This document shows, piece after piece, positions 17,637 to 49,653 of a stretch of DNA of 64,000 bases. This DNA is from Paraescarpia echinospica (taxonomy: Eukaryota > Annelida > Polychaeta > Sabellida > Siboglinidae), in assembly GCA_020002185.1 (NCBI GenBank), contig CM034538.1, positions 4,060,773 through 4,124,772 of the forward strand. The letters run 5' to 3'. The notes beneath the pieces are model-generated. The model searched no databases. It saw nothing but the letters and a program-made list of their open reading frames with translations, and was not told the origin of the DNA. Each line of letters starts with the position of its first letter. Position 1 is the first letter of the stretch. The translations under genes and the position numbers were made by a program.

Positions 17637-20600
17637 ATGACGTACATTAATTCGTGGGAGGAGTTTGCAAAGGCAGCAGAAAAGCTGTATTTGGCCGACC
17701 CAGCGAAGGTATCAAATTTACTAGGCAGTTTACTAACAACAGTGTTTTCAGATAACAATGCGGTTTGTCAAAATTTACAAAAAAATTAATACTAGTAATA
17801 GTCTATAATTATAGTGGTCTTGTCGTTGATCGTGTCAACAATATAAACATGCCGTTTTCATAAAAATTTGCGGGCACTTGTGTCGAATCCGGACCCACCT
17901 CGATTTTGCCCTTATAACTTGAGTTTTGCCTAACTTTGATACCTCAGTGACAGTGTGTTAGTTCCACCATTCAACCTTATCCCAGGCATATTTACATTTA
18001 AGAATATTGCGGCTTAGCGCACTTTTAAGGCGTAAATAGCGCCCCGGTTTGCATTAACATATGCTGCTGTATCGCTCATTTTATATGCGCGATGCGGTAA
18101 CGTATGGCCGCACCGGCGTAGACTAAAAAAGGTAAGTTCTTATATAGCACTGTATTCAGTGCTCAAAGCGCTTTACACTTTATTCCCTGGCAGACCTGTA
18201 CAATCGAACTCCTCAATTTCTCTGGGAAGCATTCAGCTACACTGCAATTAATGCGCAAATACTATTCATACACAACTATTCACCACTATCTATAGCCAGG
18301 TACTCATACAGCTGAGTGAACTGAAGCAATATAAACTAAACAAACTTGCCCAAAGTTCAACACCGCCACACAGGATTCGAGCCCGTGTTCTCTCAGTCAA
18401 GAATCTGAAGCTCTTACTGCTGCGCTACTGTGCTCCACAAGACTAGTGCAAACCGGGTCACTATTTGGGCTACAAAAGTGCGCTAAGACACAATATTTTT
18501 GTAATTTTGCTTAGGATGATGTTGAATGATGGAACTAATGCACTGAGGTATCAAAGTTAAGCAAAACTCAAGTTATAACGACGAAAGCGAGGTACGTCCG
18601 GATTTGACACAAGTGCCCATTTACAAAATACATCCATATTGTAACTCCCTGCCACTTATATTGGAATAATTCAAATTCATTTTTTGAATTGACACCAGCC
18701 CTACATAGGACCATAACATTCTAACCACAATATAATATAATGGTGCACTTGGTTTCTGCCAAGCGCAGTCATAATATGCAGTTTTTACAACAAATTTTAG
18801 AAATCGTTCTGCAAAGTATCGATATTATTAATCAGAACGCACCAAACGAATGCACACGGTTTCTGCTGAGTCGTGTTCAAAATCATCACTGTACGGTAAG
18901 ACGCAGTGTATCAATGCCGTCACTGTCTGCTTATATGCAGCATTGGAAACAAAGAACAATCCAGCAGCCACCTGCTATTTACCTGCCAAGAACACTGGAT
19001 TAGACAAACGTGATATTATTTAATTGATATTTTAATCAACAGGTGTACGTCCTTATCTATCTGTGCCACTATGATGTCTCAGTAGCCCACAGCTGCACAA
19101 GTCAATTATAGAAAGAAGATCTTTAGAAAAACAATTTTGTATCATAATTTATGTAAACTGCATAACTGTAATAACAAAATTAAATCTTTATAAAAACAAT
19201 TTTGTATCATAATTTATGTAAACTGCAAAACTGTAATAACAAAATTCAATCTTTATAAGAATATAAAATTTACAATTAACTAATTTTGTTTCAGTGTCGG
19301 TTCGTGCTGAAGTATCGACATAGTGGTGGACAGCTTGTTATCAAGATGACCGACGATCGGGTGGTAAGTAATACTTGGTGCTTGACATCCAGATGACAAC
19401 AATATGTCCAGCCTTCAGTTCCGTCCAAGTGACATATATCTGCGTCACATTAGAGAAGAACAAGAAAAACATACATTGCTCGCTGCTATTAGGATAGGTA
19501 TGCTAACAGTGTTAGTGTTTACATAAGAAACAACCTACACATGTGTCAAACTGACGTTTTCTTTTTAACTGACAATGTACAGTAATATGACCATAAACCA
19601 AGCCAAAAACCAGTAAAGTCAGTCAGATAGAGGGCTAGGTTGTCATCATTGGAACTGACTAGGCTAATAAACTATTGTGATACTAATATGGAATAACAAA
19701 AAAGCAATCTGAATCCATGATTTGTGGGTTGTGTTGTCACATGACCTTGAAGGCAGTTGATTCCCGAAATGGTGGTTCCATGAATGACACTGTATATTGT
19801 CAATGATTGTTGATGTTCAATCAACAAATATATATACTTACAAAATAAAGTTGCAAAGCATATTTACAAACAATAAAGTCCTGGGACAACTAGTCCTGTT
19901 CATTTATTTTGCCAACTGTCACTACTGTGAATAGTTGAATGATAGTAACCATCGATAGTTATATTCTTCTACTGATAATACACTGTCATTGCATTGACTA
20001 ATTGTAATGGAGTTTGGTGTATTGTTACATTCCTGTGAGCTTCCTATCACTGTTTGGTGTATTGTTACACTCCTGTGAGCCTCCAATCGCTTGTGTTTGG
20101 TGTATTGTTACACTCCTGTGAGTCTCCAGTCGCTTGTGTTTGGTGTATTGTTACACTCCTGTGAGCCTCCAATGGCTTGTGTTTGGTGTATTGTTACACT
20201 CCTGAGAGCCTCCAATCGCTTGTGTTTGGTGTATTGTTACACTCCTGTGAGCCTCCAATCGCTTGTGTTTGGTGTATTGTTACACTCCTGTGAGCCTCCA
20301 ATCACTTGTTTGGTGTATTGTTACACTCCTGTGAGCCTCCAATCGCCTGTGTATGGTGTATTGTTACACTCCTGTGAGCCTCCAATCGCCTGTGTTTGGT
20401 GTATTGTTACACTCCTGTGAGTCTCCAATCGCTTGTGTTTGGTGTATTGTTACACTCCTGTGAGCCTCCAATCGCTTGTGTTTGGTGTATTGTTACACTC
20501 CTGTGAGCCTCCAATCGCCTGCGTTTGGTGTATTGTTACTCCTATGAGCCTCCAATCGCCTGCATTTGGTGTATTGTTACATTGCTGTGAGTCTCCAATC

Positions 20601-21007
20601 GCTTGTGTTTGGTGTATTGTTACACTCCTGTGAGCCTCCAATCGCTTGTGTTTGGTGTATTGTTACACTCCTGTGAGCCTCCAATCGCTTGTGTTTGGTG
20701 TATTGTTACACTCCTGTGAGCCTCCAATCACCTGTGTTTGGTGTATTGTTACACTCCTGTGAGCCTCCAATCGCTTGTGTTTGGTGTATTGTTACACTAC
20801 TGTGAGCCTCCAATCGCCTGTGTTTGGTGTATTGTTACATTCCTGTGAGCCTCCAATCGCTTGTGTTTGGTGTATTGTTACGCTCTCCTGTGAGTCTCCA
20901 ATCGCTTGTGTTTGCAGTGTCTGCAGTACCAGACGGAACACGCCCAGGACATAAAAAAACTGGAGAAGTTGACAAGTCAACTAATGCGACACATGGCCTC
21001 CAAGTGA
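17637..21007 (+). CDS. SRP9: signal recognition particle 9 kDa protein (SRP9), 3 exons
   Basis: SRP9 pairs with SRP14 to bind the Alu domain of SRP RNA and slow translation while the ribosome is targeted to the ER. Exons read 17637-17708, 19295-19363 and 20918-21007, all joining in phase 0 with GT-AG introns, giving 76 residues (human is 86). Exon 1 encodes SWEEFAKAAEKLYLADPAK, nearly the human N-terminus. Exon 2 encodes VLKYRHSGGQLVIKMTDD, matching the beta-strand region. Exon 3 starts CLQYQTEHAQDIKKLEK and ends HMASK-stop. The short C-terminus is usual for invertebrates. Intron 1 carries an inverted-repeat element with a SINE inside it. The last exon is boxed between two minisatellites; the downstream one is made of copies of its own stop-codon region. 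Start choice is fixed by homology. Confidence 0.95.
17872..18618. mobile_element. foldback / MITE-like element with long terminal inverted repeats, in SRP9 intron 1
   Basis: The left end GGGCACTTGTGTCGAATCCG is matched in inverse by the right end (CGGATTTGACACAAGTGCCC). The match continues inward through TTATAACTTGAGTTTTGC, TTTGATACCTCAGTG and further to CACTTTTGTAGCCC-like words, so each arm is near 190-250 bp. Flanks ATTTGC and ATTTAC could be a decayed 6-bp target duplication. No transposase frame. A SINE (18127-18437) sits between the arms. Confidence 0.75.
18127..18437 (-). mobile_element. tRNA-derived SINE, nested in the foldback element
   Basis: Read on -, the sequence begins GGAGCACAGTAGCGCAGCAG, an A-box-like tRNA start, and about 45 bp later has GGCTCGAATCC, a good B box. 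These are the internal RNA polymerase III promoter parts typical of a tRNA-derived head. The body ends with AAAGCGCTTTGAGC near 18165. A second copy lies at 31512-31895 in the same orientation, sharing CAAAGCGCTTTACACTTTAT and AGCCAGGTACTCAT. Confidence 0.75.
18640..19290. other. rest of SRP9 intron 1
   Basis: AT-rich intron. A ~70-bp direct duplication lies near 19120-19260, sharing AACAATTTTGTATCATAATT and ATGTAAACTGCA. An 87-codon frame at 18740-19003 has no recognisable content and I do not call it a gene. Confidence 0.6.
20010..20915. repeat. 43-bp minisatellite abutting the SRP9 exon 3 acceptor
   Basis: About 20 copies of a unit holding CTGTGAGCCTCCAATCGCTT and GTGTTTGGTGTATTGTTACA. 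The final copy runs straight into the splice acceptor: ATCGCTTGTGTTT then GCAG|TGT, where other copies have GGTG. The acceptor's pyrimidine/TG tract is therefore itself part of the array. Confidence 0.93.
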
Positions 21008-21818
21008 AGTACAAATGAACTGATACAACACATGGCCTCCAAGTGAAGTACAAGTGAACTGATACAACACATGGCCTCCAAGTGAACTGATACAACACAC
21101 GGCCTCCAAGTGAAGTACAATTGAATTGATACAACACACGGCCTCCAAGTGAAGTACAATTGAACTGATACAACACACGGCCTCCAAGTGAAGTACAAGT
21201 GAACTGATACAACACACGGCCTCCAAGTGAAGTACAAGTTAACTGATACAACACATGGCCTCCAAGTGAAGTACAAGTGAACTGATACAACACACGGCCT
21301 CCAAGTGAAGTACAATTGAACTGATACAACACACGGCCTCCAAGCGAAGTACAAGTGAACTGATACAACACATGGCCTCCAAGTGAAGTACAAGTTAACT
21401 GATACAACACACGGCCTCCAAGTGAAGTACAAGTGAACTGATACAACACACGGCCTCCAAGTGAAGTACAAGTGAACTGATACAACACATGGCCTCCAAG
21501 TGAAGTACAAGTTAACTGATACAACACACGGCCTCCAAGTGAAGTACAAGTGAACTGATACAACACACGGCCTCCAAGCGAAGTACAAGTTAACTGATAC
21601 AACACACGGCCTCCAAGTGAAGTACAAGTGAACTGATACAACACACGGCCTCCAAGTGAAGTACAAGTGAACTGATACAACACATGGCCTCCAAGTGAAG
21701 TACAAGTGAACTGATACAACACACGGCCTCCAAGTGAAGTACAAGTTAACTGATACAACACACGGCCTCCAAGCGAAGTACAAGTGAACTGATACAACAC
21801 ACGGCCTCCAAGTGAACT
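20987..21818. repeat. 39-bp minisatellite made from the SRP9 stop-codon region
   Basis: About 21 copies of a unit containing ACACACGGCCTCCAAGTGAA and GTACAAGTGAACTGATACA. The first copy overlaps the last SRP9 codons (CACATGGCCTCCAAGTGA encodes HMASK-stop). Every later copy repeats this coding end plus the first 3' UTR bases, so the array lies in the 3' UTR. Long frames on - are artefacts. Confidence 0.95.
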
Positions 21819-22793
21819 GTAGGCAGTGTAACAGTGTTACAAATGTTGTTAGTCTGTTACAGTGCAGATATGACTATTCTAGTCAACTGCCCAGTGACCA
21901 GAGCTGGGACTTTGACCATTGGACTGGCTTTGTATCTTCCCATGAATGAGGATGTCTTTGGTTGGTTCAACTGGTCAGCAAGTTTCGTGAAACCTGCTTG
22001 AAATGTGCTGCATCTTGGCATATTGATGTCAGTGATTTAAATGATTATCTTTAAATGTGTTTCTATGCACATTGATTTCACTATGTTCAAACATCTTATT
22101 TAAATCTGAATGTGTTGTAAGCGTTTTGGCACATCGACACCAGTGATTTAACTTTATTTAAACTTGTGTCTCATCACTATGTTCAAGCATCTTGTTTAAA
22201 ACTTCTATAAATGTATTCTGTGTGTCTTGAGGTAAACATCTTATTTTGAGTTACCTCTGGGTAGTTATTCATAGGTTGTGTATACAACAAATTTGAAATG
22301 TACATAAATTGTTGTTAAAGTGTCATACGACAGTAGCAATGCATTTCTATTGTTGTATATGTGTATAAACACTGTAGATGTAATGCAGTTTGCAGGACTT
22401 GCCTCTTGTTGTCAACTGGCAGCTTGGTCAAGTCTTCCTTGTCTGTCACAAATATGTCAGGGCAATCATTTTTTATTTGCATTTCTAAAAATTCACTAAA
22501 ATCCACAAGTTAGTTTGGGTATTTCACGAAGTGATTTTCTCTACCCATGTCCAAGAACAGTTGAGTTTTTGTCGAGGTTCAACATGGGTGGTGCATGTCT
22601 CATTGTGGAGGGTAGACAGTGAGGGCAAATACAGTGTGAGGTACATTGAATAAGTGTCACCCTGATAGTAGCCTGGTTGTGTCACACCAAGTGTACACTA
22701 TGGGACACATGGTTGTGTCAAATAACTGTCAAGACCTACAGTCTACTGCTTTGACTGGTTTCAAAGATGTATGGAAGATAAATCAGTTGTATT
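21819..22793 (+). other. probable SRP9 3' UTR / intergenic
   Basis: Unique sequence between the stop-codon array and the AATAAA at 22794. No further exon seen. Confidence 0.5.
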
Positions 22794-23110: not shown

Positions 23111-26100
23111 TCAATGCGCCAGTGTGGGAGGAAGCTTGGGAAATCTCTGGTTGACTTCCTCAGTACCTGAACAGGTAACAAGTATTCTAGTTACTGATAC
23201 GAAACAACTACACACTATAATTAAACACGTTATCATAAAATAATCTGTACATTCACCATTAATATAGCACCACAATATCTTGTTCAGTGACATTTTTATG
23301 CATGTAGTTGTGTACATTAACCCTCACCTCCCTGTCATAGAGCCTCCACTGTGTCCCGGAGACATCACACAGACACATCAAGCCTCTTTGGCCAATCCAA
23401 CTCTACCTCCTGCAACCAACAACCGTGGGTTAAGGATTGTTACTGGTTTTAGGGTTCCATTGTTCATAAAATCACACACTTTTTTGCAATTGGTCGTACA
23501 TCCGCCAATCAGTTGAGAATATTTTATGTAACTTAACTGCTCACATTTACGTCATAACAAGCATGGCGCAGGAATAGTGTAGGAAACTGACTTCTGCGTC
23601 TGTGTGTATCTTGTGCCATCCACAAAATGGGCATTTTTGTAATGAAGTTGTCCAAGCTTTGAATCATCTTGATTTGAACCCAGATTCCACTGAGTCAGAT
23701 CTTCTAACCACTCCACAACGACCTGACACCATGCCCCCCTCCCGTACAGTGATTAGTTTTCACAGGTCACTCCACAATAAGCAGGAGAGAAAATCTATCC
23801 TAGTGACCTCATCCCATTTTTGGCAGATCAAAACATCTCACTCTTAGACCATATCAGTTATTTGGAATACGTCATAAATACACAGTGACATAGATTGATA
23901 TAGTGACACCGACTCTCATTGTGACATTGAGCAGTATTATCAGTAATGATGACAGACCTCAACGTTGAGTTCCAGGATGTCGCAGTCTGTCTGCAGTATT
24001 TCCCCCACACACGGCCTTGTCCGGCCAAAGTCTCCGTGCACAAACTCCTTTATGTACCTGGTGACAGTCAAGGAATCACCATCACACAGTCACTGCTGCT
24101 ACCGTCATCACAACAACATTTAACTACTCATTAAGTTATCATCAACACCTGGCTTATAATAGTTGTCATCAACACCTGGCTCCTAGAGTTCTCGTCAACA
24201 CCCGATTCTTATAGCTGTCATCAACACTTGAATCCTAGCATTGCCATCAACCTGATTCCTAGAGTTGTCATCAACACCTGACACCTAGAGTTGTCATCAA
24301 CTCCCTTACTCCTAAAGTCGTCTTCAACAATCATGTTAGTATTAGCAGTAGCAATAACGAGATAAGTAAATTGTGCAGCATTGTGACTTGCACTGTCAGG
24401 ATACGTTCCGGCCTGAGTGGACAGTTGAAGGCGGAAATGATGTGGGTCGAGCAACTCGGCAGACATCTTGTATACACATTTTTCCCGGACACCTTGAGGG
24501 CGCCTGAAACAGACATCACATGACACAGACAGCATGACACAAAACCTCCTTACAAATACTTATCAACAAAATGTTTGTGATGAGCAAAACGTCAGTGGCT
24601 TTTTAAGTGGCAAGGTGTTCTTATAGTTTTATTTATTAAACCCTGACTGCCACAAATGGATTTTATTGTAAACATACAAAATAAAATGTTCTCTTTGGTA
24701 AAGAGAAATACGGTGTACTTGAACTTAGACATGTATGGCACTATGTGACATATGGCACTTTATGTCGGCACTATATACCATGTGGCAGTATGATCAGATA
24801 CATGGCACTATGTGACACATGGCACTATATGCCATGTGGCACTATGTGACACATGGCACTATACACCATGTGGCACTACGAGACAAGAAGTCAGACCCAC
24901 CGGTGGAGGACTCTGATTGGTGTCTTTTGCTGCACTGTCAAGTCCTGCAGACGACAGCAACAGTCAACAGAAGTGGACATATTATTCAACAGTAACAACA
25001 TATTCAAAGTGTTTTATACAGCGTTCAAAATTACCACCAGTCAGACGCCCTGAGACTATCAATTTTTACCAACACCAACAACTTATCCAGAGACCATCAA
25101 CTTTTCCGGAGCCTGTCAACTTTCAAAAAGTGCTTGCCCACATAACTGCCATTTATTCAACAAATACTGTATATTACTTAAAACAAATAATTGGGTCTTT
25201 TTATACTTTACTATATTCTCATATGTGAATAAAGTGATAGTTCTTCATTTCTACTTAAAACACTGAGAGATACACATTATGTTTATATTTTAGGTTAATA
25301 TGTGGACCTCCACTTTTGAGTGGGACCACCAACTTGCAGTCAAAGGTGCTGGTGACCATCACTGTTTCAGTTCAGGTGTAGAAGACTGGTTTTAAGAGTG
25401 AATGGTTCACCTTGATACATTCCAACTTCTTCAAAAGGTCTGGTGTTAATGTTGCCTGTGCCCAACATAGGGCAGAGTAGGATTTAGTTTTCAGCATCTC
25501 TCCCTCCTTCAGCATGTTGGTTTCTTCCCTAAACAACAAGTGACATAGAAACTAAACAACAAACAAGAGGTGTCCTTGTATATATTGACAAAGAAACTAA
25601 ACAACAAACCAGGTAATCCAGTTAACAACCATGTAGGTAGGTAGCAACCACACACATAACAACCAACAGGTAGCAACCACACACATAACAACCAACAGGT
25701 AACAACCACACACATAACAACCAACAGGTAACAACCACACACATAACAACCAACAGGTAACAACCACACACATAACAACCAACAGGTAGCAACCACACAG
25801 ACAAAAATCACTAAAGGTAATAATCACACAGGTAAAAACCATACTAGTAACAACCATACAGGTAACAACCAACAGGTAACAACCATACAGGTAACAACCA
25901 CACAGGGAACAACCAAGCAAATAACAACCACACAGGTAACAACCACGCAGGTAACAACCACACAGGTAACAACCATGCAGGTAACAACCATATAGGTAAC
26001 TGACCGTGTGACTATTTGCAGGTCCCTCACAGCTATCTCTGTTGTACTGCTGTTAATTTCCTGTGAACACACACCGACACATTTAATTAACTTTCACTTT

Positions 26101-26757
26101 GCTGCATTAACAATACCTGAAGACTTTCTCCTTAGCACATAAGCATTCAAACTGTCCAACATTATTCTTGGCCAATGGACACAACATGTGCAAAAGTAGG
26201 TTCTAGACTTATATGGGAAAATAGTTTATTTTCTATGCTCTGAATCCAGTAAAATATGTTATTTAATGTTATTCTATACGAGACTTTGAAATCCCAACCG
26301 AGTATTCATTAAACAATGTTGGCATCACACGACTACATTCTACTTCTGTTTGCTGTTCCTGTCTACATCCCTAGCGTTGCTGTCCCACCTTCTGTACTCT
26401 TTCCAGTTCCTCCGTCCCAACGGTCACTCTGTGTGGATTCGTCATGTCCATTACAAATGGCCGACCTACAATACCACACATTGAATGACCATGTTTTAAG
26501 AGATTCTTTCAATCTCTCACAAATAGCCATCCTTTTAGAGTGAACGTCGTTATGTCCTTAGAGAGTGAACAATTTTTATATTATGTCAGATTATTCATTC
26601 AATTTGTCATAAATTGCCATCCTAATATACCAAACAGGGAATGACTCAACTAGGGCTCCCATGATAGCGGCATATAATTGTCTTAATGGGAGCCTCCCTG
26701 ACCTTACAATGATTTTTATATTGTAGTTTATGTACTTATGATGGTCAAAATAAATAC

Positions 26758-26812
<55 letters not shown>

Positions 26813-29800
26813 AAGGGGTGATGAAAAATACCAGCAACAATGAAGATAACGTCTGGCTTCAGTGGGTCACAATTGGCCATAACATAACAATAGCACTCTG
26901 ACAGCTCTGGTGTAAGGGCAAATGGCAAGACTGATAGTTCTTGATGTTAAGGCAAATAGGAAAACTAGTTAACTTGACAAACTAGTGAACAATGTGTGAG
27001 AACTCAACTGTACCTGTCCCTAACATCTTCACATCAACATCCTCACGACCTGAAGCACTGAATTTGTACTCTACAACAACAACAAAACATCTCCTTCAAG
27101 AATCCACATATCCAATGTCTCAGTCGTGCCAACAGTAAAACTAGTAGCCAGCTGGGTACAATGTCTTAGTTGTCCAAATAGTACAACTTGCAACATTTGG
27201 TTTATGTAGTGAACTAAAACAAGGCTACTTGGCACCAACCGTCAGCTCTGAAGAGGTTCTGGATCTTAGTGCAGACGAGTTCCTCAATGGACGACTCCGT
27301 CTTCCTGTTGCCATCAATGATCCACGGAGTCTGGCTGAGGGTGCGAGAGTACTTGTTGTAGCGACCTGGAACATTGGAGTAATTGTTGTAATGACCTGGA
27401 ACACTGGAGTGCTTGTTGTAAAGACCTGGAACATTGGAGTACTTGTTGTAAAGACCTGGAACATTGCAGTACTTGTTATTGCGATCTGGAACACTGGAGT
27501 GCTTGTTGTAATGACCTGGAACATTGGAGTACTTGTTGCAACGACCTGGAACATTCAGAATATTTTCCTTTTCACTCACAAAAACGCCCTCATCATAAAA
27601 CAAATAACTTTGTATCACCACTAACTGTTTGTTGGTTATGTGGTTTCTTGAAATAATATTGGTAGACTGAATTACATCATGAAAGTGGTGCTTCTGCACC
27701 CAGTTTCAATGTCAACTACCACCAGATAGTTGTCATGGTTACAATATGAAAGACGCTACTGCAATAAGTATCAAAGAAGACATTACCTGCGACAAAGAGA
27801 GCGTCGTGTTTACACCTGATGGAGACGCACTGACACGGCGCCTGCAGTCTCCTGGGGGGACACTGGTAGCAGCTGTCAGACGACACAATGTACAGTATTC
27901 AATCAAACCAATACATTTTACAAGTTTACACTAAACAACCACAGCTTACAACTGAAGTTTGAAATGAGTAAGACCAAGGTTAAGTATTTACATGGATACG
28001 CTACACTGTTGTTACAATACTCAAAGCGGTTCGTTATATCGTCATAAAATTTCATAAATCATTACAACCAAATATATATAAAAATAAATTTGTATAATTT
28101 CATATAATATTATGCTATTGTGATAACCCTTACGTCATCAAAATATTTATTCAACATCTGACTTCCCAACATCTAAATAATGCACGTCATCAGTTTTGTT
28201 GTTGTGTGCAGTGTTTATCTGTACGTTATAGAAGGTGGACAGATTCCTTAGAGAGAGTACCTTTTGAATGTGGCGTCTTCCATTCCACTGATGACCTGCG
28301 TCACTCGCATCTTGGTGAACACCTCTCTGTTCTACGACAGGACAGTCAACACATTACAGAGTAAGGTGGGTGTGTGTGTGTGTGTGTCTGTGTGCGTGTG
28401 TGGGTGTGTGTCTGTGTGCGTGTGTGTGTATGTGTGTGTGGATGTGTATGGGTGTGTGTGAGAGCATGTGTGTGCGTGTGTATGTGCCCGTGTGTGTCTG
28501 TGTATGTGTGTGTGAGAGCATGTGTGTGCACGCGTGTGTGAGTGTGCATGTGTGTGTGTGACTGTGCATTTGTGTACACGTGCGTGTGTGTGACTGAGTG
28601 CATATGTGTGGATGACTGTGTGTGCATGCATGCCTGTGTGTGCGTATATATGTGCAATTTTATTGTGCATTCATGTGTGATTGTAGAATATGTGCACGTG
28701 CGCATGTGTATGACTGTATGTTTGTGTGTATGTACATGCATGTGTGACAAAGTGTGTGACATGTTTGTGTGTATGTGTGTATGTGTGTTTGTGTGCGTGC
28801 GTGCGTGTGTGTGTGTGTGAGTACGTGTCTGTCTATCTGTCTGAGACCACCCACCTTGTGCTTCCTGAACTGGTCCGGGAACAAATCACATCTGAAATGC
28901 AACAAGTCAAAAGAACATCAATTACTCCATTTAACTGAGACATCTGTTACAAGACACCTACACTTTGATCCTTTCCAGGGATTGAGTGGCTCATTTCACG
29001 GGGCTCACTATAAAGACTCATTTACACTGGCTCACTTCCAGGGCCTAGTGACGGCTCATTTCAGAAATGTCTACGGTGTCTTCCTTCAAGCAAACAAACT
29101 ACATTGAAGCGTACATGGTCTGTGATCTGTGAACAACCACAAACAACTGGGTACTTTTGTTAAATGATCTCTGATAAAACATGCATAACTGTCATAACAT
29201 AAATAATGGTTAATAAACTGCAACAGAACCGTGCAAGACTTTAGAGCACCTGCGATTGGAATGAGAGCCCCAAGTGGACCTTTCTTCTGTTGCTGCTCTG
29301 GCAATTCAGTGGATATTTGTAAGTTTTCTGAGATGTGGCTTGGTAAGGGGTAACTGGGTAGGACTAACACCACAAACTGACAATACTCACAAGAAATGGC
29401 ACTCTCCAGCTGTGTCGGGATGTTCAAATGTCATGGCCACTTCAAAAGACGACTGAAAGAAACAAAACTGTTGATGAAACTTAACAACATGCTGGCTCTA
29501 GCCAAATAGCAAACTTCATTTATCAGTAAAAAAGAACAAAGTTTATAACTGAACTTTTGTGCAAACTTTGCAAAACAAGATTCACATGAATAAAAGTGGA
29601 GAAAACCATCAGCCTAATTTCAATGTCTCTTTCAAGTATTTTAGAATGATCTTAAGCATTCTCTGGTAAACACCTATAAGCTCTCAGGATTAACTATGTT
29701 CAACTATGTTACTTACACAACAGTGCAATACACTGGCTCACTCATATTGTTCCTGGCTTCCTGCACTGAAATTTGATGTCATTGTCCGCTGACAAAGTTA

Positions 29801-32800
29801 TCTTCACACTTCAGTTATAACCAAAATGGTATCGAGTATAAACCATCAAAGTGTCACAGATGCTGGGTAGCTATTTCAAGTTTGTCTGCCCTCTTATCCG
29901 CCCTACCCTTTGGTCAAGGGGAGCAGCGAGTTTCTCAACCAGGGTTGATCCATTGATCCACTTCCAGACGTCCTTCACCATCTTGATGTCCCCACGGTTG
30001 TCGGTGTACACCTCTCTACAATGACCACCAGTATATCATGTATCTATGTCAGTGTACACCTCTCTACAGTGACCACCAGTATGTCATGTATCTATGTCAG
30101 TGTACACTTCTCAGTCCTCTCTACAGCGACCACAAGTATGCCATATATCTATGTCAGTGTACACCTCTCTACAATGACCACCAGTACACCATGTATATAT
30201 GTCAGTGTACACCTCTCTACAGTGGCCACCAGTATATCATGTACCTATGTTAGTGTACACCTCTCAACAATGGAGACCACCAGTATGTCATGTACCTATG
30301 TCAGTGTACACCTCTCTACAGCGACCACCAATATGTCATGTACCTATGTCAGTGTGCACATCTCTACAGTGACAACCAGTATGTCATGTATCTATGTCAG
30401 TGTATTTTCAATAGGTTCAGTTAATTAAATCAGACAAAAAACTATAGTATTGACAACAGCTCTTTTGACTATAGCATTGTCAATATGTTCCATCAAGTTT
30501 CATACATAACATATCAGTTGATTGAGTTGATTGAGTCGAGTAAAATTCCGTTAATAAAGCTGTGTACACTCACGGTAGGAATTCCTTCAGCATGACCCAA
30601 ATAGCATGCTGAAAGACAACAAGTTATACAGTCGTACAACATTTTTAATACAATAATTGCAATGCTGATATATTTTATTCGCTATCAAATAAGAGTAATT
30701 TATAGTATTTTTTATTAGGCTAGTTTACACATAACCTATATTTGTATTATCTGCATTGCTTCAATTTTTTATATATAAATATGGTCCTTATTTGTATGTC
30801 CACTTGTTTAAATAAATTAATTGGCATTTGCTATTTAAAATTTCTCAAATATATGCAACAACTGTACATGAAATGCCTTGAAATAGACAGATTGGCTGCT
30901 TTGTGTCTGTGAAGTCACACCAATGACAAGCTTCTTCAATGGTGTTTCTGTTTCCTGGACTATGATACTAGATATGGTAAGTATCTCAAGAAACATTTTA
31001 TATTTTTTCCAAATCATATTTCAACTGACTCACTTAGTATTCATTGGCAGCTGATTAATTGAGTCTTCATTGGCAGATGACATTGGTCATGTGACATGAC
31101 CTGATACATTGAGTTTTCATTGGCAGCTGACATTGGTCATGTGACATGACCGTAGTGATGTCAGTCCATAGATAAAGGCTGAGTGAGTCGGATGAAATAT
31201 TCAGAGAGAATATAAAAAGTTTCTGGAGATGTAATTGGCATGCTTAATTATTATCTGTTAACAATACTAATGACAGAGAGAAATAAAAGATGACGAGGAA
31301 GAAGACATACTTCTCTGAGTAAAAGGGCAACAGGGAATGTGAGAGAACAGAAGAAATGACTGAACTCAAACTTCTCTGACTTCACTTTCTCAGAAATCTG
31401 AAAATAGAAGGTGCACAAGTCAGTGGCACAGCATTGTTGATTCTTCTGTAGGTTTAATGTGTTATATATCTGTTAGAATACACTGTGCATTGTATTTACA
31501 TAAAGTAATGGTAAGGTCAGTTCTGATATAGTGCTGTATCTGTTCCTTAGGACAGCTCAAAGCGCTTTACACTTTATTCCCTGGCCGACCTCTCAACTTT
31601 ACATTTTATTCCCTGGCCGACCTCTCAACTTTACATTTTATTCCCTGGCCGACCTCTCAACTTTACATTTTATTCCCTGGCCGACTTCTCAACTTCTCTG
31701 GGAACCATTCATCTATGCTGCAATTAATAAATGAAGACTATTCGTACATAAATATCCCCACCTCTATGTAGCCAGGTACTCATTTATACAGTTGAACTGG
31801 AGCAACATAGAATGAAAGAATTTGCTCAATGTTCGAAACTGCAGCACAGGATTCGAACCCGGGTTCTCTCGAGTGAGAATATGATGCTCTCAATTGAAAT
31901 CTGAAGTTACTTCAGGACCCACAACCAAACCCATGGTGGACAAGATCCTTGTTTTAAGGGACAACTAATGATGACTGACAAGACTCAGTAATCTGGTGGG
32001 GCAAATAATTGGTGGGAGGCAGGGCTGGGTTCAATTATGTAATTGTATTTGTAACTGATTACAGACAAATGCTGTAATTTAAATTTATTCTGGTTTTGGA
32101 ATTATTATGTAATTGTAATTGATTACTCTGTGTAATTGAAACAATTACATCAATTACAACACTTTCTGACATCACACACTTTGTCTAAAAATACTAAAAA
32201 ACAGTTGTCCCACAGCAAACCTTACAAAATACCAAATACCTAAATGGCGATAACCGTGTGTCAATCACATAACAGTGCTAATTATGGCAGTAGGTGAACT
32301 CTTGCAGAGTCTAGGACTATTGTTTGCTCAGCAGGTAGATTACCACCTGTCAGTGTCCACAGGACAATTCCCTTTGTTCTTTAGCCAGGCTGCAAGATGC
32401 CACTGTAAACTAGCTACACTAGTCATATGCCTGACATACACTGATGACTAGTTTACCACGCAACAGGAAGTCGAGATTTGACAGGATCCATTCCTGTCTT
32501 TTGGTAGTACGTTTCTTTGCACTTCCATTTTTGGGGAGCTTTATGTTTGGAATATTGTGTCGACATCAAATCGTTTGTTATTGGCCAACGCAATCGGAGA
32601 ATCTAGTTGCATCTTAATTAGCGCATACACTTGCAACTGGCAGTTGAGTTGCTTTACTGGGGCGCATACACTGACTACGCATTGTACTCCCGATTAATTT
32701 TTCAAATCGAATACGATGCCCTTAATTTGCACCGTAACGAGTTGCCCAATTAGGAATCGTAGTTGCATTACTGGCGTACACCGACAAAAAAATTCTTACG

Positions 32801-34110
32801 ATGTCTTCCAATATCTTCCGACAGTTGAGTTACCCCAAAATGGTAAACTAGTCATCAGTGTACGCCGGGCATTAGTCACAGTACTTCTCTACCGAGAGCA
32901 ACAAAGGCATTTCATTATGAATTTGTTGTCTTAATTTAACAAACAAAAGGATTATGTGGCCTTTTAATTACTTGCAATTATGAATGTTAACTAGAGGTTT
33001 CTGACTTGGAAATATGCCCCTTGAATGAAAAACTTTGTGGCTTCAATGTCATCAATGTGGAAAAAAACTTGTTTCAATAAGCAAATTATCTTTGCACCAT
33101 TTTATCAATTTAATTCAAATTGAGACAATTTCGTTTTCCATATTTCAGTCAATTCTACTTAATGATTCACCCAATCAACCCGATACCCATACATTGATCA
33201 CTTTTTTGGTAGGTTCCATTAATGCATCTGTAATTGTAACTGTAATTGAAAACGTAGTGGTGTAATTGTAATGACAAATTAAAAGTAATTGATTTGATTT
33301 TGTGTAATTGGACCCAGGCCTTATGGGAGGCTAAGTTTATTGCATGCTAGCGTCTCACACACACTGACCTTGTGAAGGAAGTCGACAGAGCAATGACCTT
33401 CCTGTAGCACACCAAGGCATGTGACACATACGCGACTGCCGCCAGCCGACACGTCATTGGCTGCGTCACCAGTTGACACATCCTTGGCTGCGTCACCAGT
33501 CGACACATCAATGGCTCCATCACCAGTTGACTCATCATTGGCTACGTCTCCAGTAGGAGTGACTCTGCCAGCCGAAACGTTCCTTCCTGTGGCATTCTTC
33601 AGTCTCTGCAGCCATCGCTCGAGCACCTGAGCAGAAAGCATCACAATTATTCTATAATTGTAATTATGAGTGTATTTCAAATACAAATACACTAAGTATT
33701 TTTTAACAATTGGATTTTGACTTCGACATAGTTCTGATGCCATGAATAATGAAACTAATACTGATGATACTAAGCAGAGAGACAATCAGACAGACAATAT
33801 AATCTGCCTGGACTGCTGATTAAAGGAATATGTGTCTTTAAAAGGATACTTTGAGTAGACATAGAGTTCCTACATTGCAAGACTAAGACTTCCTACATTG
33901 CAAAGCAGTCTGGAGTTTGTACGTTGCGAGGCAGTCTGTACACTTAGAGTTCCTACATTGCGAGGCAGTCTATACACTTAGAGTTTGTACATTGCGAGGC
34001 AGTCTGTAGGTATCTTGGTTCCTCTCTCCCAGGAAGCGAAGCACGCAGTGCACACAACAGCCCCAGTTGGAGAGTGCTGCAGCCACCGGGGCTCTCTCTT
34101 CATCTTCCAT
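23111..34110 (-). CDS. PUS10: tRNA pseudouridine synthase Pus10, 18 exons
   Basis: Pus10 isomerises uridines 54/55 of tRNA and also aids microRNA processing. On -, coding exons are 34110-33991, 33626-33369, 31397-31311, 30608-30574, 30015-29907, 29452-29391, 28891-28855, 28331-28261, 27872-27787, 27365-27240, 27049-27014, 26465-26389, 26060-26005, 25528-25411, 24944-24901, 24503-24405, 24057-23958 and 23158-23111. All have GT-AG introns and matching phases: 522 residues against 529 in human. Zinc-site cysteines are C19-x2-C22 and C107-x2-C110. The catalytic motif QTPWIIDG puts the Asp at 306, with the same spacing after GRYNKYSR as human. Later blocks include [23 protein letters not shown] and [15 protein letters not shown]. 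Exon 2 holds a 9-residue coding repeat. The last acceptor is ambiguous (23158 or 23166); 23158 keeps phase and alignment. An untranslated exon probably precedes, since an acceptor lies at 34116/34117. Confidence 0.95.
24124..24330. repeat. ~26-bp minisatellite in PUS10 intron 16
   Basis: About eight copies of a TGTCATCAACACCTGGCTCC-like unit, ending close to exon 16. It does not resemble the adjacent exons. Confidence 0.8.
24735..24890. repeat. imperfect CATGTGGCACTATGTGACA repeats in PUS10 intron 15
   Basis: Repeated TGGCACTAT words with dyad CATGGCAC/GTGCCATG character, ending about 10 bp from the exon 15 donor at 24900. Copies could fold into hairpins. Confidence 0.7.
25625..26003. repeat. 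14-29 bp minisatellite at the PUS10 exon 13 donor
   Basis: The unit on + is GGTAACAACCACACA with an alternating CATAACAACCAACA. Read on -, the array begins directly at the splice donor of exon 13 (CACG|GTCAGTTACC) and continues as GGTTGTTACCTGTGT repeats, so the donor-proximal intron is itself the array. Confidence 0.9.
26560..26756 (+). mobile_element. possible 3' end of a non-LTR element before a (CTGT)n tail
   Basis: Sequence ending GATGGTCAAAATAAATACTG precedes a perfect short tandem repeat, as LINE 3' ends often do. It holds AATAAA and no readable frame. Weak call. Confidence 0.35.
26757..26812. repeat. (CTGT)n microsatellite, about 14 units
   Basis: Uninterrupted CTGT tetranucleotides in PUS10 intron 11, likely polymorphic. 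Confidence 0.95.
27366..27555. repeat. 30-bp minisatellite copied from the PUS10 exon 10 acceptor and exon start
   Basis: Six complete upstream copies plus a partial. On - each holds a TCCAG acceptor followed by a version of the exon 10 start (GTCGCTACAACAAGTACTC, encoding RYNKYS). The unit is ten codons and the exon's frame stays open through all copies. Confidence 0.95.
28366..28830. repeat. long interrupted (GT)n tract in PUS10 intron 7
   Basis: About 460 bp of TG-rich dinucleotide repeat with CATG, CGTG and TATG interruptions. On - it is the (CA)n stretch just upstream of the exon 8 acceptor at 28332. Cys/Val- and His/Thr-rich frames here are artefacts. Confidence 0.95.
30016..30415. repeat. 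~48-bp minisatellite copied from the PUS10 exon 5 acceptor
   Basis: About nine copies. On - each contains TGTAGAGAGGTGTACACTGA, almost the true junction TGTAG|AGAGGTGTACACCGA of exon 5. Decoy copies read into an in-frame TGA after about eight codons. Confidence 0.93.
31512..31895 (-). mobile_element. second copy of the tRNA-derived SINE, with an internal 30-bp tandem expansion
   Basis: Shares AGCGCTTTACACTTTATTCC, GCAATTAAT, AGCCAGGTACTCAT and CAGGATTCGA with the copy at 18127-18437. The B box on - is GGGTTCGAATCC. The left part holds four copies of CATTTTATTCCCTGGCCGAC plus CTCTCAACTTTA, absent in the other copy. The tRNA head is cut short or decayed near 31900. Confidence 0.7.
32020..33322. 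mobile_element. hAT-like non-autonomous DNA transposon
   Basis: The left end CAGGGCTGGGTTCAATTATG and the right end (TAATTGGACCCAGGCCTT) are inverted copies, both followed inward by TAATTG-rich subterminal repeats, a familiar hAT pattern. Flanks GTGGGAGG (32012-32019) and ATGGGAGG (33323-33330) fit an 8-bp target duplication with one change. No transposase frame; another element is nested inside. It lies in PUS10 intron 2. Confidence 0.75.
32429..32873. mobile_element. inverted-repeat element nested in the hAT-like element
   Basis: The left arm contains CATACACTGATGACTAGTTT and ACCA. The right arm contains its inverse, TGGTAAACTAGTCATCAGTG, then TACGCCGGGCA. Arms are about 31 bp. The target duplication is unclear and there is no coding capacity. 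Confidence 0.6.
33436..33545 (-). repeat. PUS10: 27-bp coding minisatellite in PUS10 exon 2
   Basis: Three to four copies of a nine-residue unit, VSTGDAAKD, with variants ESTGDGAID and VSTGDAAND, in the linker between the first and second CxxC pairs (about residues 66-100). Human PUS10 has a non-repetitive linker there. Confidence 0.88.
33870..34007. repeat. repeats copied from the PUS10 exon 1 donor
   Basis: On - the true junction reads CAGACTGCCTCGCAAT|GTAC. Three or more downstream copies keep CAGACTGCCTCGCAATGTAG or CAGACTGCTTTGCAATGTAG, with AACTCTAAGTGTA between them, so the exon end and donor are tandemly duplicated into intron 1. Confidence 0.88.
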
Positions 34111-35060
34111 CAAAGTCTGCAAAGAGAATGGTATGTGTTGGATTGTTAGTCACGCTAATGACCCATGCATCATGACACGTGTTTATAAAACATGCTTTTC
34201 ATGTATGGCTCATTCACAATGGCTTTAGTTATTTCGATTATTAGTTATTATTTGACACAAACAATATGGTGTTTGCATCTATGAAGTTGGCAGTGTTTGA
34301 TGCATTCCACTGTCATCAGTTGAGACAGGTCATCGGCATAAGATACTCTCAGTGAATCTCCAATAACACCCTCTACCACAAGTGCAGGTGGGATCCACTG
34401 TGCCTGTCTTCCACCACAGCTCGTTGTATAGTCTGATATCAATAGAAAAATAGTTGACACCCTGTAATATAGCTGGCAGGCGAGGCCAACTTTGAACAGT
34501 ATTACCAATTACCTCTCAACAAAGTCAAAGATATATGCAGTCAGTCAGCAAGTATCTTCGCAGCCAGCAACACTTCGAATGGCTGAGGTCACATGACCGA
34601 AGCCAATGGAAAACAGCATTTTAGAAGCAGCACAGGCAAAACTGTCATCACGAGTGTTGTGAGGCATGCAAAAGTTTGATCAGTCTTGTCTTCATTAAAA
34701 AATTACACGTCTGAAAATATAATTTAAAAGTCTACAAAAATATTATTAATAAAATGTCATGCCTGTTATAAGAACAATTTGGATTTCATTGTTACAAAGT
34801 TATTCTACTATTCTTCTAATACCTCAATGCATTAATTCCATCATTTTATATCATTCTAAGCAAGTTTATAACATTACAAAAATATTGCATCTTGGCACAT
34901 TTTTTATCCCAAATAGTGTTGCACTTTACATCAACATGTACATTTGCTGTTATATCGCACATTTCAGGTGTGGCATGCAGACTGGCACAAACCGGATTGC
35001 TATTTGGGACTCAAAAGTGTCATAACATATGATAAGTTGCGAAACTCAACTCATCCTAAC
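34111..35060. other. spacer upstream of PUS10 with a small MITE fragment
   Basis: Around 34945-35025, CATTTCAGGTGTGGCATGCA and GCACAAACCGGATTGCTATT resemble the inner arm of the element at 17872-18618 (GTGCAAACCGGGTCACTATT). Otherwise AT-rich; an upstream untranslated PUS10 exon may lie here but I cannot place it. Confidence 0.45.
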
Positions 35061-39866: not shown

Positions 39867-39870
39867 TTAA

Positions 39871-44485: not shown

Positions 44486-44584
44486 GCGGAACCGGAAGTT
44501 TTCTTTGAGTTGATGGTTCAACTCCCACTGTCCAAACCTTTTGTTTCGGTAGTTCGCTACTAATTTATATGTTTCGGGTTTAAA
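44486..44584 (+). promoter_or_regulatory. C1orf198 proximal promoter with ETS-type site
   Basis: ACCGGAAGTT at 44491-44500 is an ETS-family core (CCGGAAGT), common near housekeeping starts, about 90 bp before the ATG. The ATG context is AAAATGG. No TATA box in the expected place. Confidence 0.4.
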
Positions 44585-47500
44585 ATGGCCACGGTGTACG
44601 TAAACGTAGATGAGTACTTTGCCACAATCAATCCTCTTGCAAGGAAAATCTCGCAGGACCTCGAAAACATAAAACAAAGCTATGGGGATGACTGGAATGA
44701 TTTCTCCTGCGATCAACAAGATAAGGAGTTGTGGAACAATTTGGTACCCCCTGAAATCACAGACAAATACGTGTCACAGACAGAGTCAAGTAACGAAGAC
44801 GTGCCGTCTGTGTTTCCTAAATTGAAGATTTCGTGTGGAGAGAAGATTATTGTCGATTTTGACAATGATGATGTACGTAGCTATATTTTAGAATTATTTT
44901 GCATTTTATTTATAAATGAAATAATTCGGGAATGTTATAAAATAATTTACGAAGTCCAATAATTTAATAAAATTCTGATTAAAACTATAGAGGGGTATAG
45001 GCTTCGAAAGGGTTGCGTGCATGTGTTGAATCTACACCTAAGACTAAGTAGTTTAATGTTGTTGTGTCATTGTTTGATGCTTGGACCGCAGTGGTCCAGT
45101 CCATCGGAGTTCGGATCTAACTCTGGCCGTTTTGAAACTTTGTTCACCCTGCATTGCCTGTGTCTTTCAAAAGAGACACAAAGTTAGTTGGACAGTTGGT
45201 TCTTGGCTCCTTTTTTTCCTGTCGCTGCTTCCATGGCTGGCAGTCAATCTGACATCTTTGTTTGCAATGTTGTTGATGGGTTTGCTAAGTAACTGTTGTG
45301 AAATTGTGAGAACTTCAATTTGTGGTAAACTGTGATATACTCATGAAGAATGGTTCTGATAAGTTATATTTATTTACTTGTTTTCATTGTTTCTGATGTC
45401 ACTGCTATATATAGTGCAGTTGTTGTTTTTGAAAAGTTGCTTATGTTGTCAGAACGTACAGTACAGTTGTTGTTTGTGTTGTTATCACTATGTGGTATAG
45501 TTGTTTTTTTGTGTTGTGACTGTTGTCATTATTTGTGTTTTCAGTGCTATATAGTACAGTTGTTGTTTGTATTATCATTCTTTGTCTTCCCCGACACTCA
45601 GATCTTTCAGGGTTTTTGAACTGGTTTAACTTTCCTTTCAGGGCTGGACGTGGACAGATGAACATTCTGGACCATTTTCTTGGAGAAGTCTGGTAAGCTA
45701 CTGTCAGCATTCTCTCCAGATGGTCTGGTTCAACAGTTTTCACAAATAATGTGCAATGTTGGTACAATGTCAACAAACCTGACACTAGTACTATGTTGGC
45801 ACATTGGTCAATGGCACAATGTTGACACAGTGGTAGTGCTGACATGGTGGTACAATGTTGACACAGTGGTACAATGTTGACACATGTACCATGTTGACAC
45901 AGTGGTACAATATTGACAAGGTGATACAATGTTGCCATAGTGATACAGTGTTGACACAGTGGTACAATGTTGACACTGTGATACAGTGTTGACTCAGTGG
46001 TACAATGTTGACCCAGGTACAATGTTGACAAGGTGGTACAATGTTGACACAGTGGTACAATGTTGACACAATAGTAAAATGTTGCCACAGTAGTACAGTG
46101 TTGACAAGGTGGAACAATGTTGACACAGTAGTACAATGTTGACAAAGTGGTACAATGTTGACACCACAGTGGTACAATGTTGACACAATAGTACAATGTT
46201 GCCACAGTAGTACAGAGTTGACACAGTAGTACAATGTTGACAAAGTCGTACAATGTTGACACAGTGGTACAATGTTGACAAAGTGATAACATGTTGGCAT
46301 AGTGGTACAATATTGACATGGTGGTACAATGTTGGCACAGTGGTACAATGTTGACACTGGTACAGTATTGACACAGTTGTACAATGCAGACCCAGTGGTA
46401 CAATATTGGCACAGTGGTACAATGTTGACACAGTGGTACAAAGTAGGTATGGTTGTACAAAGTTATGTACCATGTTGGCATAATGGTACAATGTTGACAC
46501 AGTGATACAATGTTGGCATGGTGGCACAAAGTTATGTACCATGTTGGCATATCATCTTGTAATGTAATCTAATTACCATATTTTACAACAGTGCATACAA
46601 TGAAATCCCCCCAAAATTAGTTATGAGAACGTATAATCATATGCAGCTGTATTTACCAAATTAAAAAACAGATTGTTAATACTACATACATATAGGTCCA
46701 TATGTATACTACTGTTAGTTTAACTTTCAGATCCAACAAGACCTCTATATCTCTCTGTCTCTCCTCCCCCCTCTCTCTCTGTTTGATGATGTTTACTAGT
46801 GTTGGTCTCATTTTCAGAGCCAACAAGACCTCTCATTCTCCCTCCCTCTCTGTTTGATGAAATCTACTAGTGTTGCTTTCACTTTCAGAACAAGCAAGAC
46901 CTGTCCCTGTTTGATGATGTCTACTAGTGTTAGTTTCACTTTCAGAGCCAACAAGACCTGACCCTGTTTGATGATGTCTACTATTGTTAGTTTCACTTTC
47001 AGAGCCAACAAGACTTGTCCTTGTTTGAGGACGAGCCACAGAAGGATATACAGAAAGCGCGCAACCTGAAGGCGACAAAGAACCCTAAACCACCTGTTTC
47101 CAACACCAACCAGTCACATTCGTTTGTACCTGAAAAGAGCATCTGGAGTTCGCCTTTTCTCGCATCCGAGAAGTCGGCGTCACACAATGTCGATCCAGAC
47201 ACACTGGAGATCTTTCAGAGGTTTGGGATAACATTTGGAGGGAAAGAGGAAGAGGATGTGTCTTCAAGTGCCGCAGGGGCTGATGAAGACTCAAGTCTCC
47301 TCAGTGGCAGAGACACTGACCGGTTGCAGCTTAGCCTCAACACAGAGCTGCTGACTGACAACATTTCAGATGACATCTCAGAGAGTACACCATCAAGTGT
47401 TGACGCTGAAATGTCAGTCACATCAATGGCTGATAGCAAGCCAGTGTCACCAACTGATGTAGCCAGCTACACACAAGACATGCAGTCCTACCAGACCTAC

Positions 47501-49653
47501 TTCTCCGACGCATATGAGCAGAGTCACCAAAATCCTGTCACCGAGCAGCCCAAGCCAGTGTCACCAGTTATTCCACTGAAACAACCTGTCCCCAAGCCTG
47601 CTTCATCAGCTACTCCACTGAAAGAATCCAAGCCTGCGTCACCAGTCACCCAGCCCAAGCCTGTACCCAAGCCTGCATCACTGGTCACCCAGCCCGAGCC
47701 TGTACCCAAGCCTGCACCACCGGTCACCCAGCCCAAGCCTGCATCACCAGTCACCCAGTCCAAACCTGTGCCCGAGGCTGTGTTACCAGTTGAATCTTCA
47801 GACAAGGCTTTGGTAAGTCTGTCAGTTCATGTTGCAATAGCCCAATGGGCAATTTTTGTAGAAATAATATCTTCTCAGCCATTGGGAGAGTCAAGAAAAG
47901 ACAACCTCCCTAAAATTTTGAATCCGTGAAAAACTTTGTTTCTTCAAATTTAGACATAAATTTGCTTCTTGTTTGTTGTGTGTCCATATTTGTTGCTTTA
48001 TTGTAATAATTAGGCTCTAACTTGTAGTACATGTACTTACAACTTACAAAACACCTTACATTGAACTACCTATGTAATAAACAATTGTATTAATGTTATT
48101 GTATTAAATATCGTAATTCACACTTTTACTTGTAAGTTTTTAAGCAACTTTGTTGCCAATATTAAATGTAAATATGTATTATTTGTTGCCAGATTTAGTC
48201 TGATTCATGATTGGCTAAGTAAGTTGCTGACACAATTTTTAAAATTTGTTGGGATTTGTGGGAGGTTGTGGCTTTTTACTTGGTTTGCCGGGTACCACCC
48301 ATATATGTTGTTTGAGGCCCTCTCTTCACTCCACTGGCTTTGCCTGGTACCACCCACCTGTGTTGTTTCAGAGTGAGGCCCTCTGTTCATTCTACTGGCA
48401 TACCTGGTACTACCTCCTGTGTTGTTTCAGAGTGAGGCCCTCTCTTCATTCTATTTGCTATGCCTGGTACCACCCATATATGTTGTTTGAGGCCCTCTCT
48501 TCACTCCACTGGCTTTGTCTGGTACCACCCACCTGTGTTGTTTGAGGCCCTCTCCGTTCTACTGGCTTTGCCTGGTACCACTCATATATGTTGTTTGAGG
48601 CCCTCTCTTTACTCCACTGGCTTTGCCTGGTACCACCCATATATGTTGTTTGAGGCCCCCTCTTCACTCCACCTGTGTTGTTTCAGAGTGAGGCCCTCTC
48701 TTCATTCTACTGGCATACCTGGTACTACCACCTGTGTTGTTTGGTCCCCCTCTTCATTCTACTGTCTTTGTCTGGTAATACCACCTGTGTTGCTTGGTCC
48801 CCTTCTTCAATCTACTGGCTTTGCCTGTTACTACCACCTGTGTTGTTTGGTCCCCTCTTCAATCTACTGGCATTACCTGGTACCACCACCTGTGTTGTTT
48901 GGTCCCCCTCTTCAATCTACTGGCTTTGCCTGGTACTACCACCTGTGTTGTTTGGTCCCCCTCTTCAATCTACTGGCTTTGCCTGGTACTACCACCTGTG
49001 TTGTTTGGTCCCCTCTTCATTCTACAGGCTTTGCCTGGTACTACCACCTGTGTTGTTTGGTTCCCTCTTCATTCTACTGGCTTTGCCTGGTACTACCACA
49101 TGTGTTGTTTGGTCCCCTCTTCATTCTACTGGCTTTGCCTGGTACCACAACCTGTGTTGTTTGGTTCCCTCTTCATTCTACTGGCTTTGCCTGGTACCAC
49201 AACCTGTGTTGTTGGTCCCCCTCTTCATTCTGCTGGCTTTGCCTAGTACTACCACCTGTGTTGTTTGATCCCCTCTTCATTCTACTGGCTTTGTCTGGTA
49301 CTACCACCTGTGTTGTTGGTCCCCCTCTTCATTCTACTGGCTTTGCCTGATACTACCACCTGTGTTGTTTGGTCCCCTCTTCATTCTACTGGCTTTGCCT
49401 GGTACTACCACCTGTGTTGTTGGTCCCCCTCTTCATTCTACTTGGTTTGCCTGGTACTACCCACCTGTGTTGTTTGATGCCTTTTTCATTCTACTTGGTT
49501 TGCCTGGTACCACCCATCTGTGTTGTTTGATGCCTTTTTTATTCTACTTGGTTTGTCTGGTAGTAGTACCATCCACCTATTTTGTTTCAGAGTGAGGCTC
49601 TCTCTTCATTCACAAGCCAAAAGTCTGGCTTTGATTTCCTGGACAACTGGTAA
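44585..49653 (+). CDS. C1orf198: C1orf198 homologue, 4 exons
   Basis: Function is poorly known in any animal. Exons 44585-44872, 45642-45692, 47003-47812 and 49591-49653 join in phase 0 with GT-AG introns, giving 403 residues (human 327). Exon 1 carries INPLARKISQDLENIKQSYG, matching the human SPMARKIMQDKEKIREKYG block. Exon 2 encodes WTWTDEHSGPFSW, matching LTWQDEHSAPFSW. Exon 4 ends KSGFDFLDNW-stop, matching KTGFDFLDNW. The middle, exon 3, is acidic and Ser-rich and then has Pro/Lys/Val repeats such as VTQPKPVPKPAS (about residues 290-365), probably disordered. Introns 2 and 3 hold arrays; two of them repeat the next exon's acceptor. Confidence 0.93.
45760..46550. repeat. 19-bp minisatellite in C1orf198 intron 2
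   Basis: The unit is GTACAATGTTGACACAGTG with GACAAGG, GCCACAG and GGCATAG variants, about 40 copies. Cys/Leu-rich frames on - are artefacts. Confidence 0.95.
46725..47002. repeat. ~57-bp repeats copied from the C1orf198 exon 3 acceptor
   Basis: Four decoy copies (starting about 46729, 46818, 46889 and 46946) precede the true exon. Each has a CACTTTCAG-type acceptor followed by a version of the exon start AGCCAACAAGACCTG (SQQDL). Read as exons, the last decoys meet TAG within about 15 codons. Adjacent copies become closer to the true exon toward the 3' side. Confidence 0.93.
47660..47790 (+). repeat. C1orf198: coding repeats in C1orf198 exon 3
   Basis: Imperfect copies of a CCCAGCCCAAGCCTGTACCC unit encode Q-P-K-P-V-P-K-P-A-S-x-V-T, a proline/lysine-rich, likely unstructured segment. 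Confidence 0.85.
48280..49590. repeat. ~53-60 bp minisatellite copied from the C1orf198 exon 4 acceptor
   Basis: About 25 copies. Several early ones (near 48365, 48424 and 48682) keep TGTTGTTTCAGAGTGAGGCC and CTCTCTTCATTC, almost the true junction TTTTGTTTCAG|AGTGAGGCTCTCTCTTCATTC at 49590/49591. Others have lost the CAGAGTGA core and read TGTTGTTTGGTCCCCCTCTT. Long + frames here are repeat artefacts. Confidence 0.95.

Follow-up and report, generated by a model that had tools for sequence, protein, structure and literature searches.

We analyzed one window, a 64-kb stretch of DNA from a single haplotype, at positions 4060773-4124772 of contig C8 in an assembly of 1,083,790,144 bases and 3111 contigs. 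Three genes, SRP9, PUS10 and C1orf198, were reconstructed from splice sites in the window, and six minisatellite arrays were found to contain copies of the neighboring exon boundary. SRP9 (17637..21007, plus strand) has coding exons at 17637-17708, 19295-19363 and 20918-21007 and a spliced frame of 76 residues. PUS10 (23365..34116, minus strand) has 18 exons and a spliced frame of 528 residues. C1orf198, a DUF4706 gene (44585..49653, plus strand), has exons at 44585-44872, 45642-45692, 47003-47812 and 49591-49653 and a spliced frame of 403 residues. The joined exons (3, 18 and 4, respectively) contain no internal stop codon. The PUS10 exons were located with the human PUS10 sequence; an acceptor-like site precedes exon 1, and a noncoding exon upstream of it is possible. 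The names SRP9 and C1orf198 come from an earlier note on this DNA. C1orf198 is backed by the DUF4706 match of a homologue, and the label SRP9 is taken from that note alone.

The predicted PUS10 matched a protein of Ridgeia piscesae with 80% identity over 97% of the query and one of Lamellibrachia satsuma with 86% identity over 61%, and exon 3 of C1orf198 was 76% identical to a R. piscesae protein. The Ridgeia matches of both genes carry one locus prefix, NP493_270. Because PUS10 and C1orf198 are close to the Ridgeia and Lamellibrachia proteins, the window is nuclear DNA of a vestimentiferan-like siboglinid. No relatives of the window sequences were found among prokaryote genome contigs.

Tandem Repeats Finder (TRF) returned 86 rows, and those with a period of at least 7 were merged into 42 arrays, which we compared with 50 gene edges (23 acceptors, 22 donors, 2 starts and 3 stops). 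Five of the 50 edges lay inside arrays, and two further edges were within 5 bp of one. Array units that include an exon boundary, the feature of so-called mirage minisatellites, were present at five edges strictly by TRF and at a sixth by junction-carrying units. The six boundaries comprise one donor, four acceptors and one stop codon.

The array at the SRP9 stop codon (20972..21816, plus strand) has a 39-bp unit. Its seed is the last 36 bp of the coding sequence, including the stop codon; TRF places 36 bp of the array within the gene, from which it extends to the 3' side. Among the 21 extra copies scored, 18 read TGA and 3 read CGA. In PUS10, on the minus strand, the exon 1 donor array (33913..34008, 34-bp unit) enters the exon, which ends at 33991, by 18 bp, and GT is retained in all 4 extra copies, the outermost of which lies beyond the TRF end. 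The exon 5 acceptor array (29999..30404, 48-bp unit, exon start at 30015) enters by 17 bp and keeps AG in 6 of 7 extra copies. The exon 10 acceptor array (27347..27555, 30-bp unit, exon start at 27365) enters by 19 bp and has 7 copies counting the genic one, with AG in 6/6 extra copies. The C1orf198 exon 3 acceptor array (46769..47028, plus strand, 57-bp unit) enters by 26 bp and keeps AG in 4/4 extra copies, the outermost lying ahead of the TRF start. With the C1orf198 exon 4 acceptor included (3/7), the splice dinucleotide was retained in 23 of the 28 extra copies scored at splice junctions.

Of the six seeded arrays, the one at C1orf198 exon 4 makes the weakest case. Upstream of this exon, which starts at 49591, arrays of 55-bp and 52-bp units occupy 48284..49562 (plus strand), and the TRF array stops 28 bp short of the acceptor. 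The junction is carried by some of the 55-bp units: the seven extra units that reach the score all belong to the 55-bp array or stand at its end, and three of the seven keep AG together with the exon start. The 52-bp array lies closer to the exon, and not one of its roughly 16 units reached the score. With this grading, all six of the arrays that the earlier note had described as holding copies of the neighboring junction exist. It was also right that two more edges adjoin arrays, in both cases with no exon bases inside. The array before the SRP9 exon 3 acceptor (20012..20914, plus strand, 43-bp unit, 21 copies) stops 3 bp short of it, and the array after the PUS10 exon 13 donor (25639..26000, minus strand, 15-bp unit, about 24 copies) begins 4 bp past the donor, the exon ending at 26005.

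The direction of array growth was addressed with related proteins. In PUS10 exon 10, the motifs GRYNKYSR and SQTPW are invariant across the window's protein and four relatives. In C1orf198 exon 3, SQQDLSLF is common to P0001, P0002, P0005, P0007 and P0008 (five of eight homologues), and the remaining three do not cover it. Since conservation falls on the exon copy at both edges, these two arrays grew from exon to intron, and outward growth from exon copies is thereby supported in the two cases compared. For SRP9, the exon copy is presumably the conserved one, going by the human C-terminus.

Several homologues read upstream of these two exons, in stretches that would be intron read-through. Those upstream of C1orf198 exon 3 (13 residues in P0002, 11 in P0005, 57 in P0007 and 98 in P0008) contain the junction motif once only, and those upstream of PUS10 exon 10 (47 residues in P0129 and 13 in P0130) contain GRYNKYS once only. 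Because the junction motif is single in the relatives, the PUS10 exon 10 and C1orf198 exon 3 arrays look lineage-specific, although copies in other frames would escape detection. In P0130, the reading frame enters a repeated RLDVR motif just beyond the PUS10 exon 10 exon, and this repeat looks like another minisatellite, at the opposite edge of the exon.

The Ridgeia PUS10 model contains a 9-residue insert, RAKYTDCLM, at the exon 1/exon 2 joint, and the second half of the insert resembles, by eye, the array copy past the PUS10 exon 1 donor in the window. Judging from this predicted protein and the likeness by eye, at least one outward copy is probably present at PUS10 exon 1 in Ridgeia, and the Ridgeia model may have absorbed one array copy as exon, which is of relevance for annotation. 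Given the P0130 repeat, further relatives may have arrays of their own close to exon edges. The likely Ridgeia copy, again by eye, also speaks against the arrays being an artefact of assembly or of the gene models. Tandem repeats are hard to assemble, and in the amphioxus draft one mirage had been assembled aberrantly (PMC3087553). However, the array copies in the window differ among themselves, and all three reading frames are intact. We regard an artefact as very unlikely.

The duplicated acceptors could in principle have been retained since they yield useful alternative proteins, chiefly at PUS10 exon 10. The six upstream acceptors there are all in frame, and the array, with AG in every extra copy, is open over 180 bp; the Ridgeia insert, which by eye is like an array copy, could be counted on the same side. 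Against this, the seven exon 10 copies show 3, 9 and 5 differences at codon positions 1, 2 and 3, respectively, with no excess of silent changes, and the extra sequence therefore gives no sign of being coding. GRYNKYS is also single in the upstream stretches of P0129 and P0130. At PUS10 exon 5, each of the 6 upstream acceptors tested is followed by a stop, and at C1orf198 exon 3 all 4 upstream acceptors lead to a stop, 2 of them being also out of frame. The 3 upstream acceptors tested at C1orf198 exon 4 are all out of frame. A coding role for the PUS10 exon 10 array was not supported, and retention for useful proteins is very unlikely.

Arrays were also found away from exon edges. Two lie wholly in coding exons (exon fraction 1.00): a 27-bp-unit array in PUS10 exon 2 (33448..33554, minus strand) and a 39-bp-unit array in C1orf198 exon 3 (47628..47768, plus strand). 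Both periods are multiples of 3, and the frame is kept. In a between-species comparison, the PUS10 exon 2 array region differed in length from that of Ridgeia, and the proteins of Ridgeia and others vary in length where the exon-internal repeats of PUS10 and C1orf198 sit. A further array (31565..31695, plus strand, 32-bp unit) was seeded within a dispersed element, with no exon edge. The two copies of this element (18161-18414 and 31555-31890) are 72% identical over 249 alignment columns; the former holds a single 32-bp unit, at 18171-18197 (27 bases aligned), and the latter holds four, at 31565-31692. The amplification process is not confined to exon edges, as exon interiors and a dispersed element are also hit.

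The 42 arrays make up 23.5% of the window and 32.7% of its intron bases, and they include 364 of the 3036 exon bases. Of the 42, 32 are more than 30 bp away from all recognized edges. Array cover is 47% in 1-17500, where no gene was recognized, 25% in 17500-34200, 0.4% in 34200-44500, 46% in 44500-49700 and 1.6% in 49700-64000. In twenty 10-kb stretches sampled from contig C8 (period 7-100), array cover had a mean of 8.6% and a median of 5.0% (range, 0.6%-27.8%), and the window is therefore array-rich for this contig. The GC content was 45.8% in array DNA, 37.9% in other noncoding DNA, 50.1% in exons and 45.2% at edges.

The earlier note had proposed that exon-edge segments are duplicated outward into introns by a process that prefers exon edges, such as R-loop or splicing-linked repair, so that edge copies would be commoner than minisatellite density predicts. 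We scored outward copies of edge 30-mers (at least 22/30 matches within 1 kb). The opposite was seen in the window: outward copies were present at 7 of 50 edges versus 447 of 1400 intron probes, the probes including the 0.8-kb array past the SRP9 stop. One of the seven edges, PUS10 exon 12, has one copy, at 22/30, and looks like chance. Among other controls, outward copies were seen for 341 of the 1402 probes placed in 1.1-17 kb and 50-62.8 kb, and for 34 of the 422 placed in exon interiors. Only 4 of 45 splice edges lay in an array versus 14.7 expected, and when edges were rotated within genes, a mean of 12.9 (standard deviation, 3.5) of the 50 edges fell in arrays versus 5 observed; 1.1% of rotations gave so low a number. 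Array cover was 13.6% in the first 25 intron bases and 22%-34% beyond 125 bases. Fewer arrays at edges than in introns are as expected if exons resist arrays. Targeting of splice signals, as judged by density, was rejected, since both arrays and copies are depleted at edges; by the refuting condition that the note had itself named, its proposal fails.

A second test considered each array separately: the array was collapsed to one unit, and the chance that a random founder straddles an edge was calculated. This test was devised post hoc in a single window, takes no account of selection or of seeding preference beyond GC, and leaves out the two arrays wholly in exons. Straddling arrays numbered 5 strictly by TRF and 6 with C1orf198 exon 4, for which the detailed runs counted the 52-bp array as straddling and the 55-bp array as non-straddling. 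Our first estimate of the expected number was 0.27-1.60, and the whole-window rate gave 0.63 flat and 1.05 GC-weighted. In the detailed runs, flat expectations were 0.63 for the whole window, 1.28 for the transposon-poor parts and 1.00 for the gene spans, with P values of 0.0001 to 0.0021 for six arrays. The corresponding GC-weighted expectations were 0.97, 2.05 and 1.99, with P values of 0.0005, 0.0185 and 0.0164 for six arrays and of 0.0033, 0.0574 and 0.0522 for five, a post hoc excess of two- to sixfold in one window. GC preference lifts the expectation about 1.5- to 2-fold and the excess remains, so that GC was rejected as its sole cause. Selection against straddling arrays, if counted, would enlarge the excess. 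The two nulls disagree: the window lies below expectation by array density and above it by per-array seeding.

In favor of an edge-preferring process, 6 arrays (5 strictly) straddle an edge where about 2.0 would be expected after matching for GC and region (P of 0.016-0.019 for 6 and 0.052-0.057 for 5), and the excess is stronger at the whole-window rate and without GC weighting. However, this excess is post hoc and comes from one window, outward copies are rarer at edges, and similar arrays arise in exon interiors, in the dispersed element and at the many sites away from edges. The process would also have acted on a stop codon, which is not a splice junction. We consider such a process unlikely, and it is likewise improbable that minisatellites here are born at exon edges several times oftener than elsewhere in a manner tied to transcription or splicing, which would keep copying splice sites out into introns and so provide a standing supply of alternative ones.

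Instead, the arrays are probably mirage-type minisatellites, formed by ordinary expansion in a repeat-rich region, tolerated in the outward direction, with the exon copy held by selection. Segments of about 15-60 bp would be duplicated in tandem throughout such a region, presumably by replication slippage or unequal exchange, and the first duplicated segment would by chance straddle an exon edge. The array could then grow outward only, because selection would keep the exon copy and the reading frame. Extra copies of the splice site or stop codon would come to lie in the intron or on the 3' side, where they would drift as minisatellite copies do elsewhere. Splicing would presumably stay unchanged on the genic site, and the duplication would not be targeted to splice sites. 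What weighs against ordinary expansion is the number of straddling arrays, 5-6 versus 0.27-2.05 expected across settings (P for 6 from <0.0001 to 0.0185; P for 5 up to 0.0574). Purely random seeding is not comfortable with this number, though the count is post hoc, and a seeding bias toward exon edges is possible but unproven. From the earlier proposal, seeding from edges and outward growth are supported; a dedicated edge process was not shown, and the density test is contrary to it.

In the remainder of the window, nine open frames (7 of the 35 from 1-17.5 kb and 2 from 50-64 kb) and a 37-residue piece near 17.3 kb gave just three weak Pfam matches (E values of 0.45, 0.03 and 0.0077), all under the curated cutoffs. 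For 1-17.5 kb this means that no gene was recognized, which is not equal to no gene. An open stretch at 17310-17400 (minus strand), which adjoins the SRP9 start and has a good donor-like GTGAGT at its end, had no Pfam match; the 37-residue piece near 17.3 kb had a single PDB match, at an E value of 0.22. This stretch may represent exon 1 of a gene in 1-17 kb that is transcribed divergently. An open frame of 183 residues at 55644-56192 (minus strand) had no Pfam match at an E value of 0.001. Between C1orf198 and PUS10, two 250-bp long terminal repeats (37914-38163 and 42600-42849; 97.2% identity) surround a retrotransposon with reverse transcriptase/RNase H Pfam matches at 40040-42052. By eye, it is nested in an older LINE (long interspersed nuclear element) reading frame that continues on either side.

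Related arrangements have been described in other genomes. Earthworm metallothionein genes have intronic minisatellites (PMC12783039); they resemble the window in that minisatellite units abound in the intron of an annelid gene, and the excerpted text makes no mention of units containing exon edges. The Ridgeia genome paper (PMC9921365) ran TRF, and the word minisatellite is absent from its main text. Our literature search found no paper joining vestimentiferan and minisatellite, nor one joining minisatellite, exon-intron boundary and annelid. According to the portion of PMC2812944 at hand, human genes in segmental duplications have internal tandem repeats at exon-intron boundaries. As in the window, these are minisatellite units, averaging about 30 bp, that sit at exon edges; in the human genes they can change splicing. 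Unlike the arrays here, the human repeats are tied to recent segmental duplications, some creating new introns with transcript support, as far as the same portion describes them.

Potato RdRp is said to be a case of intron gain by tandem duplication. Intron gain through tandem duplication of proto-splice sites was proposed by Rogers, as cited in PMC3087553. The model, in the form cited there, shares with the window arrays the tandem duplication of a segment carrying a splice signal; the window arrays differ in position, lying within introns or downstream of a stop codon.

The closest counterparts are the mirages of amphioxus (lancelets), and the statement in the earlier note that no system of this kind had been described was mistaken. 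Mirages are minisatellites whose tandem units include an exon-intron boundary (PMC3087553); one in Adh3 is known through that paper, and an excerpt of PMC3902484 cites a mirage in TnC and likens repeats in PGBD5 to it. For the amphioxus globins, reverse transcription-PCR suggested that regular splicing is undisturbed by mirages (PMC3087553, as excerpted), and splicing in the window would by analogy remain on the genic sites. Length instability between haplotypes or tissues counts as a further mark of the amphioxus mirages. As far as these excerpts describe them, mirages and the window arrays are alike in that the unit spans an exon edge and measures tens of base pairs upward, donors as well as acceptors can be involved, AG or GT persists in many copies though not in all, and the genic copy stands at the array end. 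In contrast to the amphioxus mirages described there, the window arrays belong to a tubeworm of another phylum, the annelids; two genes within 33 kb carry several apiece, the setting is minisatellite-rich, and one array was seeded by a stop codon. By this likeness, the window arrays would be further mirages, in a new phylum so far as our searches go. In the papers found, mirages come from lancelets, and their presence several times in two annelid genes of one window suggests that they originate wherever minisatellite turnover is high. The tubeworm offers a second lineage, with a 1.08-Gb assembly, in which seeding at exon edges can be counted.

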